From: Leucobacter denitrificans
GTDB taxonomy: Bacteria; Actinomycetota; Actinomycetes; Actinomycetales; Microbacteriaceae
Direction: 5' to 3'
DNA length: 64,000 nucleotides
Assembly: GCF_014396385.1 (NCBI RefSeq)
Contig: NZ_CP060716.1
Span: 1,054,001-1,118,000 of the forward strand
Under the pieces are notes generated by a model. That model was not told where the DNA came from. It did not search any database and saw only the letters and a list, made by a program, of their open reading frames with translations. The translations under genes and the position numbers were made by a program. Each line of letters opens with the position of its first letter. Position 1 is the stretch's first letter. Shown one piece after another: positions 178-46,726 of this stretch.

Positions 178-202
<25 letters not shown>

Positions 203-286
203 CGTTTGCGCAGCTCGCTGTGCCGCCCACGGCGGCAGCCCACGGAGCGAAGCGAGGGGTGGCGAGCTGCGTCGGCAAACGCATAG
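178..286 (+). repeat. gene-tail repeat unit, acs copy
   Basis: The last 21 bases of the acs gene before its stop region (178-198) recur at 262-282, each followed by a TAG triplet after one variable base. A partial inverted copy (203-218) follows directly after the stop codon. Between the inverted and direct copies lies a core (219-261) containing the hairpin GCCGCCCACGGCGGC and the string GGAGCGAAGCG. The same arrangement with the same core, but with arms matching another gene, is seen at 34712-34827. What made it is unknown. Confidence 0.8.
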
Positions 287-18838: not shown

Positions 18839-18862
18839 ATTGCGTGTCCCTTCACATTGAAA

Positions 18863-18953
18863 GACCCCTCACGCACCCGATAGAGCCCAGCTACCCTTGC
18901 TTCGTTTCCGACCTGGGGGAGTTCACCAAGATATCGCCACGTGAGGGGCCTCA
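18863..18953 (-). ncRNA. ffs: signal recognition particle RNA, small bacterial type
   Basis: On the minus strand the transcript begins GGCCCCTCACG and ends CGTGAGGGGTC, closing a long hairpin. The apical part contains CCCAGGTCGGAAACGAAGCA, the conserved domain IV with the GGAA tetraloop and the asymmetric internal loop bound by Ffh. It lacks an Alu domain, as in other 4.5S-type RNAs. It guides ribosomes making membrane proteins to the translocon. It lies just upstream of the aminotransferase gene on the same strand. Confidence 0.95.
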
Positions 18954-18984: not shown

Positions 18985-21060
18985 TCACGAACCCTCAGTT
19001 GCAGGTTCTGCCTCCGCATCATCTGCACCCTGCTCCGTTACCGGAGCAGTTGGAGCGGCAGGATCGAGCGCTTCTTCGAGAGTAAAACTTTCTTCGGCGT
19101 CCTCGCCAGCAAACTGGGACTGGTAGAGCTCGTAATATGCGCCCTTCCTAGCGAGCAGTTCCTCGTGCGAGCCCTGCTCCACGATCCGACCGGCCTCCAT
19201 CATGAGAATGGTGTCAGCGTCTCGAATCGTCGAGAGTCTGTGTGCGATCACGAACGAGGTGCGATCGCTGCGCAGCGCCCGCATAGCCTCCTGCACGAGC
19301 ACCTCGGTACGCGTATCCACTGACGAGGTTGCTTCGTCGAGAATAAGCAGCGATGGATCCGCAATAAACGCACGAGCAATCGTGAGCAACTGGCGCTCGC
19401 CCGCCGAGAGCGACGAGGCGTTCTCTTCGATCACGGTGTCGTAGCCCTCTGGTAGCTGGCGCACGAACCGATCCACCATTGTCGCCTTCGCCGCCTCGAC
19501 CACCTCGTCGTCGGTCGCGTCGAGGCGCCCGTACCGAATGTTCTCGCGAATCGTGCCACTGAACAGCCACGCGTCTTGCAACACCATGCCGACGTGCGAG
19601 CGCAGGTCGGAGCGCGTGAGCGCGGTGATGTCGACGCCGTCGAGCAGGATTCTGCCGCTGTTGAGCTCGTAGAACCGCATGATGAGGTTCACGAGCGTCG
19701 TCTTGCCGGCGCCTGTCGGGCCGACGATTGCGATCGTGTGGCCGGGGCGGGCCTCGAGCGACAGATCCTCGATGAGTGGGGTGTGTGGATCGTAGCTGAA
19801 CGACACATTCTCAAACGAGACATGGCCGTCGGTACGCTCTGGCAGCTTCGCGCTCTCAGACTCGGGATCTTGCTCATCGGCGTCGAGCAGCTCAAAGGTG
19901 CGCTCGGCCGAGGCCACGCCCGACTGCAGCATGTTCGCCATGCCAGCCATCTGGCCCACGGGCTGCGCGAACTCGCGCGAGTACTGAATGAACGCGGTCA
20001 CATCACCGAGCGTCAGGTTGCCACTCGTGACGCGCAGCGCACCCACCACAGCGATGAGCACGTAGGTGAGCGACTGCACGAAGTTCATCGACGGCATGAT
20101 CGCGCCGGATAGCGCCTGCGCCTTGAACGAAGCGTCGAAGAGACCCTCGTTGCGGCGGTCGAACTCCTCGGTCATTTCTTTGTCACGGTTGAAGATGCGC
20201 ACGAGTTCGTGCCCGGTAAACGACTCTTCAATGTGGCCGTTGAGGTCTCCCGTGTGCTTCCACTGAGCCGCGAAGAGCTTCTGCGCGCGCACGCCCACTA
20301 CACCAGCGATGATGCCCGAGAGCGGCAGCGCGATGAGCGCGATAAGCGCGAGCTGCCACGAGACCACAAACATCATCGCGGTGATGCCGATTACGGTCAG
20401 CAGCGACTGCACGAGCTGCGAGAAGGCCTGCTGCAGCGCCTGCTGAATGTTGTCGACGTCGTTCGTTACGCGCGAGAGCGTGTCGCCGCGCTGCCGCCCA
20501 TCGAAGTACGACAGTGGCAGCCGGTTGATCTTCTCTTCGATGTCAGCGCGAAGCTTGTAGACCACGCGCATCACGAGGCGGTTCAGAATATACCCCTGCA
20601 GCCACATCAAGAACGAAGCAACCAGGTACAAGCCGAGCACAACGACGATCAGCGAGCCGAGCAAGCCAAAGTCGATGCCCTCACCCGGCACGACGTTCGC
20701 GCCCTGCAGCATATCTGCGAACTGCGTCTGGCCGTCTGCGCGCAGCGACTCAATGATCACCTCGACCGGAACGCCGGCGGGCAACTGCATGCCGAGTACG
20801 CCGTTAAAGATCACGTCCATGGCCTGGCCGAGTACGCGCGGCGCGATGACCGTGAGCACCACAGATGCCACAACGAGCAGCACGACAAACGAGAACTTGC
20901 CCTTCTCGGGCCCGAGCAAACCAACGAGGCGCTTCGCCGACGGCCAGAAATGCTTGGCCTTCTTCGGTGGGGCTCCCTCGGCAAACATGTCGCCGCCGGG
21001 CTCGAAGTTCTCCCAGTCCTCTTCTTCGACGACTTCTGGTTCTATATTCTTGGCCATCAC
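18985..21060 (-). CDS. ABC exporter half, catalytically complete subunit
   Basis: A 691-residue fusion of six membrane helices and an ATPase. The ATPase has Walker A GPTGAGKTT near residue 448, signature LSAGE (a variant of LSGGQ) and Walker B ILDEATS with the catalytic glutamate. An acidic N-terminal tail and a low-complexity Glu/Ala C-terminal tail frame the core. Its start overlaps the stop of the neighbouring exporter gene by four bases, so the two probably form a heterodimer. Substrate could be a drug, lipid or peptide; nothing in the sequence decides it. Confidence 0.93.
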   Translation of the reverse strand: MMAKNIEPEVVEEEDWENFEPGGDMFAEGAPPKKAKHFWPSAKRLVGLLGPEKGKFSFVVLLVVASVVLTVIAPRVLGQAMDVIFNGVLGMQLPAGVPVEVIIESLRADGQTQFADMLQGANVVPGEGIDFGLLGSLIVVVLGLYLVASFLMWLQGYILNRLVMRVVYKLRADIEEKINRLPLSYFDGRQRGDTLSRVTNDVDNIQQALQQAFSQLVQSLLTVIGITAMMFVVSWQLALIALIALPLSGIIAGVVGVRAQKLFAAQWKHTGDLNGHIEESFTGHELVRIFNRDKEMTEEFDRRNEGLFDASFKAQALSGAIMPSMNFVQSLTYVLIAVVGALRVTSGNLTLGDVTAFIQYSREFAQPVGQMAGMANMLQSGVASAERTFELLDADEQDPESESAKLPERTDGHVSFENVSFSYDPHTPLIEDLSLEARPGHTIAIVGPTGAGKTTLVNLIMRFYELNSGRILLDGVDITALTRSDLRSHVGMVLQDAWLFSGTIRENIRYGRLDATDDEVVEAAKATMVDRFVRQLPEGYDTVIEENASSLSAGERQLLTIARAFIADPSLLILDEATSSVDTRTEVLVQEAMRALRSDRTSFVIAHRLSTIRDADTILMMEAGRIVEQGSHEELLARKGAYYELYQSQFAGEDAEESFTLEEALDPAAPTAPVTEQGADDAEAEPATEGS

Positions 21061-22874
21061 TCGACCTCTCGCTTCGCTCCGTAGGCTGCCGCTGTAGCGG
21101 CACCAGCCGACGAGTCGAACGCGATGCGTTCTTGGTCATCGTCTGCTTCCGCCTGCTCGAGCTGAGATCTCACGATCTCCTGATACACCTCGTTGGAGCC
21201 GAGAAGCTCATCGTGGGTACCACGGCCGACGATCTCGCCACCCTCGATGACGAGGATCTGATCCGCATCGGTAATCGTCGAAACACGCTGCGCAACGATG
21301 ATCGTCGTCGCGCCCTGAGTCGCCGAGGGAAGCGCCGCGCGAAGCCTCGCGTCGGTCGCAACGTCGAGCGCAGAGAACGAGTCGTCGAACAGGTACACCT
21401 TCGGCTTCGAGACGAGCGCACGCGCGATCGAGAGGCGCTGCCGTTGACCGCCCGAGACGCTCGTGCCGCCCTGAGAAACAGGTTCGTCAAGACCGAGCTC
21501 ACGCTCACGCACGAAGTCTTCACCCTGCGCGACCCTCAGGGCCTCCCACAGTTCTTCGTCGGTTGCTGCCGTGCGACCGAATCGCAGGTTCGAGCCAATG
21601 GTCCCCGAGAACATATACGGCCGCTGCGGCACCAGGCTCAGCGTGTCAGCGAGCTGGTCGCGAGTGAGCTCAGACACTGGGGCACCATCGACCGTAATTG
21701 ACCCCTGCTGTGGATCGTAAAGCCTGAGCGCCAAATTCAGCAGTACTGTTTTGCCAGCGCCGGTCGATCCAATGATCGCCGTCGTCTTGCCCGGCTCGGC
21801 AGCGAAACTCACGTTCTTAATCACGGGCTTCTCTGCGCCCGGGAAGCCGAAGGTGACATTCTCGAAGACCACCCGACCGGCCTCTGGAGTCTCGAGCGTC
21901 GCCGCTTCAGGGAACGAGAGCGTCGACTTCGTGTCGAGCAGCTCGCGAATGCGCTCAGCACACACCACAGCGCGCGGAATCATCATGGTCATGAAGACGC
22001 CCATCATGACCGCCATAAGAATCTGCATGAGGTACTGCAGGAACGCCGTCAGCGATCCCACTTGAATGTCGCCGTCTGCGACCCGGTACCCGCCGAACCA
22101 CAGCACCGCGCCGGTAGCGAGGTGCAGCACCATCATGATCACGGGGAACATGAGCACGAAGATATTGCCGACCTTGACCGACACATCGGTGATTTCGCGG
22201 TTCGCGACACCGTAGCGATCGGTCTCAAACGGCTCACGCACGAACGCGCGCACGACGCGGATACCCATGATCTGCTCGCGCAACACGTTGTTGATCGCGT
22301 CGACCTTGTCCTGCATCACTCGGAAGAGCGGCAGCAGGGCCCACACCAAGAACCCAACGATGACCGCGAGCACCGACACCGATACCCACACGAGCCACGA
22401 GAGCCCGGCGTCTTCGCGCAGCGCCATGATGATGCCGCCGATCATCATGATTGGGGCAGAGACCATGAAGTTCAGGGTCATGAGCACGAGCATCTGAATC
22501 TGCTGCACGTCATTCGTGCCGCGTGTGATCAGGGTGCCCGCGCCAAACTTGGTCGCCTCGAGCGTTGCGAGCGAGTCGACCTTTCTATACACCTCACGGC
22601 GCAGGTCGCGGCCGAAGCCCATCGCCGTGCGCGCGCCGAAGTAGACGGCCGCAACGGCGACGGCGAGTTGGCCGAACGAGGCGAGCAACATGATGCCGCC
22701 GGTTCGCCAAATAAAGTCGGTATCACCAAGCGCAATACCGCGGTCAATAATCTGAGCGTTCAGGCTCGGAAGCCAGAGCAGTGCCATCGTCGACAGCAAC
22801 TGCAGAACGAGTACGAAAACGATAAAAACCCAGTAGGTTTTCGCATGGCGTAAAGCCAAGGAGATGAGTGCCAC
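21057..22874 (-). CDS. ABC exporter half with a degenerate ATPase site
   Basis: A 605-residue ABC exporter half: six membrane helices, then Walker A GSTGAGKT near residue 370, signature VSGGQ, and Walker B region YLFDDSFSALD. Aspartate replaces the usual catalytic glutamate, so one of the two composite sites is probably slow or inactive, as in TM287/288-type heterodimers. The last residues (AGAATAAAYGAKREVE) are encoded by DNA matching the core of the gene-tail repeat described at 219-261. First gene of the pair; preceded by AGAGGATCC rather than a strong ribosome-binding site. Confidence 0.93.
   Translation of the reverse strand: MALISLALRHAKTYWVFIVFVLVLQLLSTMALLWLPSLNAQIIDRGIALGDTDFIWRTGGIMLLASFGQLAVAVAAVYFGARTAMGFGRDLRREVYRKVDSLATLEATKFGAGTLITRGTNDVQQIQMLVLMTLNFMVSAPIMMIGGIIMALREDAGLSWLVWVSVSVLAVIVGFLVWALLPLFRVMQDKVDAINNVLREQIMGIRVVRAFVREPFETDRYGVANREITDVSVKVGNIFVLMFPVIMMVLHLATGAVLWFGGYRVADGDIQVGSLTAFLQYLMQILMAVMMGVFMTMMIPRAVVCAERIRELLDTKSTLSFPEAATLETPEAGRVVFENVTFGFPGAEKPVIKNVSFAAEPGKTTAIIGSTGAGKTVLLNLALRLYDPQQGSITVDGAPVSELTRDQLADTLSLVPQRPYMFSGTIGSNLRFGRTAATDEELWEALRVAQGEDFVRERELGLDEPVSQGGTSVSGGQRQRLSIARALVSKPKVYLFDDSFSALDVATDARLRAALPSATQGATTIIVAQRVSTITDADQILVIEGGEIVGRGTHDELLGSNEVYQEIVRSQLEQAEADDDQERIAFDSSAGAATAAAYGAKREVE
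21066..21104 (-). repeat. repeat core inside a coding end
   Basis: Read on the minus strand, GGTGCCGC, a 4-base loop, GCGGCAGCC and then ACGGAGCGAAGCGAG match the cores at 219-261 and 34742-34784 with a few changes. The stem is kept although the loop differs. Here the repeat is translated and supplies the last residues of the ABC transporter, so the protein end appears to have been built from the repeat. Confidence 0.65.
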
Positions 22875-34614: not shown

Positions 34615-34705
34615 AGCGGGCCGGATTCGGGGCACGGTCGACAGGCTGGGTCTGGCAGCGAGCGAAGCGAGCCGGAAGGCGAACGTGCCCCGAATCCGGC
34701 CCGCT
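34615..34705. repeat. large inverted repeat enclosing a core-like loop
   Basis: A perfect 21-base inverted repeat (34616-34636 and 34684-34704; left arm starts GCGGGCCGGATTC) encloses 47 bases. The loop contains GGCAGC, then GAGCGAAGCGAG, resembling the core of the gene-tail repeats. It lies between the response regulator tail and the rplJ promoter region. Confidence 0.8.
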
Positions 34706-34711
34706 GAAACC

Positions 34712-34827
34712 TCAATCCGCTGGTTTGACCATGTAGCCCGCCATCCCGCGCTTCGCTCCGTGGGCTGCCGCCGTGGGCGGCACCGCGGGCCGCATGGTCA
34801 ATCCGCTGGTTTGACCATGTAGCCCGC
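34712..34827 (-). repeat. gene-tail repeat unit, response-regulator copy
   Basis: The 30 bases at 34798-34827, the 3' end of the response regulator gene including its stop, recur exactly at 34712-34741. A partial inverted copy (34785-34797) follows the stop. Between lies a core (34742-34784) nearly identical to 219-261, with GTGCCGCCCACGGCGGCAGC and GGAGCGAAGCG. Order and orientation relative to the host gene are the same as at the acs locus. Confidence 0.85.
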
Positions 34828-35529
34828 GCCACGCACCGTGTGGATCATTGCGGGCCGCCCCGAATCGATCTTGCGGCGCAGGTACGAGATGTACAGCTCA
34901 ACGACGGTCGGCTTGCCAGAAAAGTCGTAGCTCCACACACGGTCGAGAATCTGCGCTTTCGAAAGCACTCGCCCTGAGTTACGCATGAGGTACCGCAACA
35001 GCTCAAACTCGGTGCTCGTCAACTGAATGAACTCATCGCCACGGGTCACCTCGTAGCTATCTTCGTTCAGCTCAAGATCTCCGACGCGAAGAATCGGGTT
35101 CGGCTGCGAGTCAAGCACAATCTGCGAGCGGCGCACGAGACCGCGGAGCCGCGCGAGTAGCTCCTCAAGACTGAAGGGCTTCACGACGTAATCATCGCCG
35201 CCGGCTGTGAGGCCCGCTACGCGATCCTCAACTGAATCGAGCGCGGTGAGGAACAGCACCGGAAAGATCTCACCGGCCGAACGCACCCGCGACAGCAACT
35301 GCATGCCATCGAAGTCGGGCAACAGAATGTCGAACACCGCGACATCTGGCTTGAACGTGCGCACGGCTTCGAGCGCCTCTTCCGAGTTCGAGGCCGTTGA
35401 GACTTCCCAGCCCTCGTAGCGCAAGGCCATCGCGATAAGCTGCGTGATCGAAGACTCGTCGTCGACCACCAGCGCGCGCACAGTTGTGCCGTCAGGCTTG
35501 GTCGGCACCTCAATATTCATGTCATTCAT
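34798..35529 (-). CDS. OmpR-family response regulator, orphan
   Basis: A 243-residue two-component regulator. The receiver domain has the DD pair at 23-24, the phosphorylation site D67 in VAVFDILLPDFDG and the conserved Lys in VVKPFS. The winged-helix DNA-binding domain ends AMIHTVRGAGYMVKPAD. No histidine kinase gene lies on either side; directly downstream are the repeat structures and rplJ. Related actinobacterial regulators usually have a kinase directly after them, so the kinase may have been lost or lies elsewhere. Confidence 0.93.
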   Translation of the reverse strand: MNDMNIEVPTKPDGTTVRALVVDDESSITQLIAMALRYEGWEVSTASNSEEALEAVRTFKPDVAVFDILLPDFDGMQLLSRVRSAGEIFPVLFLTALDSVEDRVAGLTAGGDDYVVKPFSLEELLARLRGLVRRSQIVLDSQPNPILRVGDLELNEDSYEVTRGDEFIQLTSTEFELLRYLMRNSGRVLSKAQILDRVWSYDFSGKPTVVELYISYLRRKIDSGRPAMIHTVRGAGYMVKPAD

Positions 35530-46456: not shown

Positions 46457-46726
46457 TCAGAGAACCTTGGAATCTGCGAGACCATCGAACGCCGCATCTA
46501 CTTTGTCGAACCTCGCATCAATCTGATCGAACCTCGCACCAATCTGATCAAACCTCGCATCAATCTGATCAAACCTCTTCTCAACCTGGTCGAACTTCTT
46601 CTCGAATTTCTTGTCGAGTTCGACGATCGGTCGACGCAAGCTGACATAGAGCGCGATCATTCCTCCCACCATCGCAACAAAGGTGATGATCGGACCAAAG
46701 ATCGTCATGATGGTTTCCAAGGACAC
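46457..46726 (-). CDS. small membrane protein with a repeated coiled coil
   Basis: An 89-residue protein: one N-terminal membrane helix (about 8-28), then a coiled coil built from seven-residue repeats of the form RFDQIDA, repeated about four times (FDQVEKR, FDQIDAR, FDQIGAR, FDQIDAR). The underlying DNA is also repetitive, so repeat number could vary between strains. No known family recognised beyond this architecture. Start GTG at 46726. Confidence 0.7.
   Translation of the reverse strand: MSLETIMTIFGPIITFVAMVGGMIALYVSLRRPIVELDKKFEKKFDQVEKRFDQIDARFDQIGARFDQIDARFDKVDAAFDGLADSKVL

Follow-up and report, generated by a model that had tools for sequence, protein, structure and literature searches.

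The question raised by this locus is why the last 30 bases of a response regulator gene, stop codon included, stand a second time just beyond that gene, and whether a like arrangement at an unrelated gene reflects a process that copies local 3′ ends around a mobile core, as the original prediction proposed for the 64 kb stretch of DNA analyzed here (the window). The host gene encodes an OmpR-type response regulator (RR), with profile matches to Response_reg (2.5e-26) and Trans_reg_C (3.6e-26) and at least one strong homologue in each of the 54 genomes of the genus, inferred to be Leucobacter. Our preferred reading, which we hold in even balance between acceptance and doubt, is that a non-coding mobile palindrome targets gene 3′ ends or stop codons and has its first arm copied from the target. 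The following features carry the argument, X being the gene tail, X′ its inverted copy, and X1 and X2 its first and second direct copies.

34798..35529, minus strand: the OmpR-type RR gene, host of the unit, an open reading frame (ORF) of 243 aa.
34798..34827, minus strand: X1, the RR gene tail (the last nine codons plus TGA), identical to 34712-34741.
34785..34827, minus strand: H1, the hairpin formed by the RR tail and the inverted copy X′, seen as a fold and an inverted repeat.
34766..34782, minus strand: H2, the core hairpin TGCCGCC-CAC-GGCGGCA, with covarying pairs in alignment A1.
34742..34765, minus strand: H3, the hairpin GCCC-A-CG-GAGCGAAG-CG-CG-GGAT of alignment A1, with the strongly conserved loop GAGCGNAG.
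34712..34741, minus strand: X2, the second RR tail copy including the stop, 30/30 identical.
178..286, plus strand: the first unit (X1 178-202, H1 178-218, core 220-261, X2 262-286).
21060..21151, minus strand: a third unit, which had no entry in the earlier list, found as a covariance model match (G000:C1:1075060-1075150, 6.7e-9).

On the sense strand the RR gene ends in GCGGGCTACATGGTCAAACCAGCGGATTGA; 13 bases (CCATGCGGCCCGC) follow, then a 43-base core, then the same 30 bases again, the two copies (34798-34827 and 34712-34741) agreeing at 30/30 positions with a start-to-start distance of 86. The 13 bases and the TGA make up TGACCATG-cg-GCCCGC, the pairing partner of GCGGGC-ta-CATGGTCA at the tail start, and H1 reads GCGGGC-ta-CATGGTCA-(loop)-TGACCATG-cg-GCCCGC. 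The partial inverted copy that had been described at this place is indeed there: X′ (34785-34800, minus strand) pairs with the tail start through 6 bp, a 2-base mismatch, and 8 bp. The core is near-identical to that of the first unit (41/43 positions, 220-262 against 34783-34741 on the minus strand), and the two are homologous rather than unrelated hairpins. The first unit's tail (GCGAGCTGCGTCGGCAAACGC) differs from the RR tail, and the arm before its core is largely the inverse complement of that tail. Chance does not account for the RR repeat, since two of the window's three exact direct repeats of at least 14 bases at a spacing of 30 to 260 bases are the RR unit and the unit at 178/262. An upstream ORF, ABC-type by eye, has the third unit at its end; its sense frame stays open across the unit and, as traced by eye, crosses the core and stops at a TGA that overlaps the following ATG.

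Other repeats occur in the window. The remaining direct repeat of the above kind, at 46509-46570, has 20 exactly matching bases at a 42-base spacing. An inverted repeat at 34615-34705 (26 bases, 96%, with a 39-base loop containing GGCTGGGTCTGGCA) is perhaps another repeat family; GGCTGGGTCTGGC is also present downstream of the RR gene at loci L148 and L162. A second 26-base inverted repeat (96%), at 298-364, is found directly downstream of the first unit. An Rfam scan of the window at the gathering threshold gave a single match, the bacterial small SRP RNA at 18857-18953, and none of a curated family to the units.

The units belong to a family. A DNA search of the genome that contains the window (G000, hereafter the own genome; 2.40 Mb, one contig) gave 15 matching places, the query included. 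We collected 110 stretches around matches for comparison, aligned 61 units (A1), and built from A1 a covariance model, R1; the same 61 sequences also built the direct-copy profile used below and match both R1 and profile by construction. At an E value of 0.01, R1 finds the family in at least 24 of the 54 genus genomes, the own genome included, with at least 1 to 32 copies per positive genome (at least 32 in G022, 18 in G026, 16 in G060, 15 in the own genome, and 10 in G016), and among the matches listed at E 0.001 none falls in the 148 other genomes of the order, 9 of which represent other genera of the same family; up to 79 candidates per genus genome and up to 28 per other genome of the order were scored by R1, and the counts are lower bounds. 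The exact core pattern also matches Leucobacter musarum and has no match in viral contigs, where phage carriage was sought. Carriage by plasmids was rejected as well, the five weak matches in a plasmid collection all lying in the RR gene part of the query and none in the core. Own-genome copies divide 7 and 8 between the replication strands, an informal count by eye with the origin assumed at the contig start, which indicates no strand bias. Full tandem copies of units occur. At L018, L118, and L122, in three genomes, the core is longer, with H2 replaced or extended by hairpins ending ATTCCGTG before H3.

Read in the sense direction, the unit consists of X, usually the stop, a small hairpin, X′ (the inverse complement of X), H2, H3, and X2. 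The small hairpin is approximately AACGC-NNN-GCGTT and is absent from the RR unit; a d(GCGNAGC) minihairpin, a motif unusually stable in DNA, is present in H3 and in many small hairpins. The spacing is regular: in 84 of the 89 units whose X2 is clear, X begins 55 to 69 bases ahead of H3, and where a gene stop and a recognizable X2 are both present (49 units), the stop lies 6 bases after the start of X in 19. GGC directly precedes X in 36/62 and H3 ends as GGTG in 34/62. The site often resembles GGC-GNNGCN-stop, the boundary falling after GGC. A sense ORF of at least 100 codons ends in the scanned range at 92 of the 116 first units, with the stop at −57 to −46 from H3 in 60 of these 92; when the range is narrowed, 47/90 sense ORF ends share the most populated 12-base bin, compared to 13/50 antisense ends in theirs. 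Two observations count against the preferred reading. First, no sense ORF of 100 codons ends near 24/116 of the first units; these include tRNA 3′ ends (L015 and L128) and units within open frames (L109 and L111). In the latter two, from G023 and G016, the unit occupies the same position of one gene, whose product looks CcdA-like by eye, within open frames of 437 and 431 codons. Second, X2 has no fixed right end, its limits being spread from tail to core, and full tandems exist, so that the direct repeats have no constant length and no fixed-length target duplication was found. In the units inspected by eye, none of the hairpins H1, H2, and H3 was seen to be followed by a T run.

In many units, X2 and X′ match the tail of the very gene at which they stand. 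The direct copy X2 scores at least 10 against its own X1 in 89 of 152 units, compared to 1.8% of 1793 mismatched pairs, and at least 20 in 68 of 152, compared to 0.4% (19 profile matches without a recognizable H3 were left out of this test). Since the tail copy varies by gene, these duplications do not go back to one simple tandem event. The inverted copy is also local: at least 6 exact complementary bases link X′ to the local X in 51 of 74 distinct X (5.9% of mismatched pairs) and at least 8 in 15 of 74 (0.33%), with the start of X set by X2 alone and not by the fold. A fold-free, fixed-window test with a re-placed window gave a score of at least 7 in 43/82 units compared to 5% of mismatched pairs, the 82 units being what remained of 88 core matches after 6 were dropped as false by eye; two earlier tests with badly placed windows were weak (9/88 local against 41/1848 mismatched, and 13/82 against 6.4%). 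Counted against the preferred reading are these two weak outcomes, the 23 of 74 distinct X with fewer than 6 matching bases in X′ and the fact that the own X′ region ranks in the top three for only 33 of 74.

Whether X′ was matched at once or by slow co-evolution can be approached through the length of X2. X′ is matched in 34/48 units with a long X2 and in 6/13 with a shorter one; a long X2 goes with a matched arm no less often than a shorter one does, which disfavors slow co-evolution. Further, in 23 within-genome pairs whose cores are at least 95% identical, X′ agrees at a mean of only 4.9 of 8 bases (best of 5 shifts), with 4.0 to 4.3 of 8 in pairs with less alike cores, and agreement reaches 7 of 8 in only 2 of the 23, which means that the core is shared and the arm mostly local. 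The long-X2, stop-offset, later G-T, and near-identical-core counts omit L076 (a second entry for the L244 site) and loci that carry no genome label, reducing 152 units to 140, with 106 first units, whereas the X′ and ORF-position tests keep 116 first units.

The fold is conserved, and asymmetrically so. Of the 17 consensus pairs in A1, 11 covary, both partners having changed. What pairs as G-T on one strand reads as A-C on the other. Isolated non-Watson-Crick stem positions comprise 17 G-T, 0 A-C, and 10 others in the 82 units; in the 106 first units they comprise 14 G-T, 2 A-C, and 16 others, compared to 6 G-T and 5 A-C in upstream control blocks. Related units contribute some of these counts. 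From the excess of G-T over A-C, it seems to be the sense strand that folds. The asymmetry is weaker over the 17 consensus pairs of A1, where G-U to A-C stands at about 30 to 10 with column pair 79-102 omitted, which we count against the preferred reading.

By coordinates, the RR tail itself bears a unit in 5 of the 54 genus genomes, namely the own genome, G016, G023, G060, and G063. The base of H1 at GCGGGCTAC is present in all five, and as this stretch is common to the five genes its pairing is hardly informative on local copying. Only the own genome among the five has the extra 8 bp at CATGGTCA. Given the 30/30 tail identity and the absence of the unit from the six relatives nearest by RR protein (L138 to L143), the own RR unit looks young. 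One of these six, L138 (G003), carries at its RR end a plain tandem copy of 21 tail bases with the stop, one base different, and no core.

These data bear on an explanation that needs little or no movement, namely, an old, vertically inherited, structured 3′ UTR element in which compensatory change keeps X′ matched and cores are homogenized within each genome. We consider this unlikely. It would accommodate the covarying stems, the excess of G-T over A-C, and the presence of units at the same tails across species, as at the RR gene and at the gene ending in SMFEGAA, which has units in nine genomes (9/10 loci inspected). It sits poorly with long identical X2 copies whose X′ is already matched, with the lack of the RR unit in the six nearest relatives, and with near-identical cores beside different X′.

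If units did arrive at new sites, the site before arrival becomes informative. At the gene ending in ATGGR, G016 has a full unit, and the corresponding site in G023, with flanks 94 to 96% identical, has X, TGA, and the small hairpin and no arm, core, or X2; it may represent the pre-insertion state or the trace of recombination between the repeats. This nearest empty site counts against the preferred reading to the extent that the hairpin may pre-exist or may outlast a deletion. One could hence suppose that the core inserts into X-hairpin-X′ palindromes already present at gene ends and duplicates the target, X′ having been there beforehand, a view to which the coreless hairpin at the RR tail of G062 also lends some support. 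We find it improbable on balance: the second arm X′ is missing or truncated in the empty sites of both G023 and G062, and no such hairpin was seen by eye at the ATGGR tail in G026 and G031 or at the RR tail of the six nearest relatives.

Under the preferred reading, X2 should be a copy of the local tail, and some diverged, coding-like X2 fit allele exchange better than local copying, a further point against it. In the sucD-like gene of the own genome, the two tails, TTCGCAGCGCTGTAA and TTTGCCGCACTGTAA, both encode FAAL-stop; at L078, both diverged copies encode RRS-stop; and at the SMFEGAA gene the pairs are GCAGCGTAA and GCTGCCTAG in the own genome, GCTGCCTGA and GCGGCGTAA in G022, and GCAGCCTGA and GCGGCGTAG in G030. 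Elsewhere the stop is lost (L096 and L234) or a residue changed (L246). Diverged X2 were listed only where at least 3 of 5 residues agree, which gave 21 rows, most differing solely at the left boundary of X. The sucD-like, L078, and SMFEGAA pairs look like two alleles, and exchange between orthologous genes may be part of their history; on an informal reading, units would have passed from one ortholog to another, X2 serving as the homology on the right. The predicted copying of local 3′ ends around a mobile core is supported by the data in an amended form, which allows for these allele-like pairs and leaves the route of copying to the model set out below.

Near-synonymous gene ends on either side of a core also recall the attachment sites of integrases. 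In prophage and island att duplications, e.g., that of e14 in icd, a near-synonymous copy takes the place of the gene end and the original end remains downstream, as in some units here, and the units might be remnants of site-specific integrative elements that restored the gene 3′ end and have shrunk to about 50 to 100 bases. The synonymous versions at the sucD-like gene, L078, and the SMFEGAA gene favor this idea, as do L274 and L270, which keep frame and stop with residue changes (translated by eye), and the duplication of tRNA 3′ ends at L059 and L056. An integrase site is fixed, whereas here a single core is found with dozens of unrelated tails, and att remnants leave X′ unexplained; we consider this origin very unlikely. 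The units also differ from known prophage and island duplications in measuring about 50 to 100 bases.

A similar plan recurs with another core. Two matches of the small-hairpin pattern led to the tail of an M48-type protease gene (named by eye) in the own genome, and the unit there is as follows.

G000:C1:2348154-2348407 (L074 1421-1675, L260): second-core unit at the M48-type protease tail, with two full 111-base copies plus 32 bases.

Here a GGGCGG tail, the stop, a CCGCCC arm, two hairpins, and the tail again follow one another, and the core sequence is unrelated to the first. Relatives of this query are found in 13 of the 54 genus genomes, the own included. Among 15 loci examined, the last hairpin was recognizable in 12, and 10 of these 12 have a tail-copy score of at least 9. 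The arm matches by exactly 6 or 7 bases in 5 of the 10 (four being, by eye, the same protease gene), by 4 to 5 bases in 4, and not at all in 1, these being counts without a mismatched control; judging from the second-core loci, the plan recurs with a less regular arm. Separately, 27 bases of the 3′ part of tRNA-Gly(ccc) are repeated 124 bases away at L059 (1408-1558), and 36 plus 27 bases at and beside the 3′ end of tRNA-Val are repeated 135 bases away at L056 (1416-1614); both repeats surround small hairpins of the AACGC type with other spacers.

Mobile palindromes near stop codons are already known, and several families resemble the units in part. Mycobacterial interspersed repetitive units (MIRU) are short, tandem-growing actinobacterial repeats, mostly in gene direction and near stop codons or stop/start overlaps. 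The present units likewise lie in gene direction at stops, as the ORF-end counts above indicate, and form tandems; they differ, by the description of MIRU, in having arms that match the local tail and a three-hairpin fold, and in the lack of listed R1 matches in the 148 other genomes of the order. Rickettsia palindromic elements are able to sit in frame within coding genes, as the L109 and L111 units do at the same place of one open frame, whereas most units described here are at stop codons and many have target-derived arms. Integron attC sites preserve structure over sequence, occur at gene ends with the stop inside, and have a basal stem, an internal loop, and an apical stem; the units share conservation of structure, position at gene ends, the internal stop, and a similar stem layout, and we know of no attC counterpart, comparing by description, to the core plus tail copy.

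REP/BIME sequences, associated with RAYT transposases, are the remaining comparison: they are palindromic, multi-copy, next to stop codons, and likely folded in mRNA, all of which can be said of the units too. Short palindromes in many copies adjoining genes might accordingly be taken for REP-like hairpins that a Y1 (TnpA-REP) transposase distributes, the flanks being alike by chance. To this we give hardly any credence. The Y1 transposase profile PF01797 has no match in the 54 genus genomes, compared to 5 of 14 control genomes, and the flanks, present in direct and inverse copy, match far above mismatched pairs. A resident reverse transcriptase was likewise rejected as a partner in the copy-rich genomes, RVT_1 occurring in 8 of 54 genomes and in none of the copy-rich G000, G022, G026, G060, and G016. 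No autonomous partner was found, which counts against the preferred reading.

Returning to the palindrome that targets gene ends, the combination of a shared core with local flanks suggests that the insertion process rebuilds part of the element from its new neighborhood, the first arm probably being copied by fold-back synthesis, for which we infer both the enzyme and the step. The element would settle at a gene 3′ end with the stop codon a few bases inside, and insertion would keep the coding end intact, place a second tail copy beyond the core, and make X′ the inverse complement of the tail. In such a model, the core would first be delivered by a putative factor or by template jumping; the growing strand would then turn back on itself close to the stop, in most cases at the small hairpin, and copy the tail to give X′; synthesis would next go back to the tail start and copy the tail again to give X2. 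The resulting direct repeats would permit tandem growth and deletion, and X2 may supply right-hand homology through which host recombination would move the unit into the same gene of another species. The triple hairpin would be retained as a folded sense strand, most simply as a structured mRNA 3′ end. The fold-back copying, the delivering factor, the exchange through X2, and the mRNA role are all read from sequence comparison and are proposed as such.

In its most ordinary form, the preferred reading describes a REP- or MIRU-like palindrome with a special target-fitting, and its novelty is provisional. A bolder version, which we advance tentatively and lean somewhat against, is that of a self-completing element: the core alone would travel, and fold-back synthesis would copy the host gene end both into the first arm and beyond the core. 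If this were true, the gene, the stop codon, and a functional hairpin would be rebuilt together at each insertion, and two unrelated cores within one genus would be using the same trick, which would make the copying process, and not the core, the conserved part. We know of no account of how a mobile palindrome that settles beside stop codons does no damage and retains a functional fold wherever it inserts. An arm derived from the target would be a direct, testable case of template switching within the cycle of a mobile element, and it would also explain duplicated gene ends that are easily mistaken for assembly errors or simple slippage.
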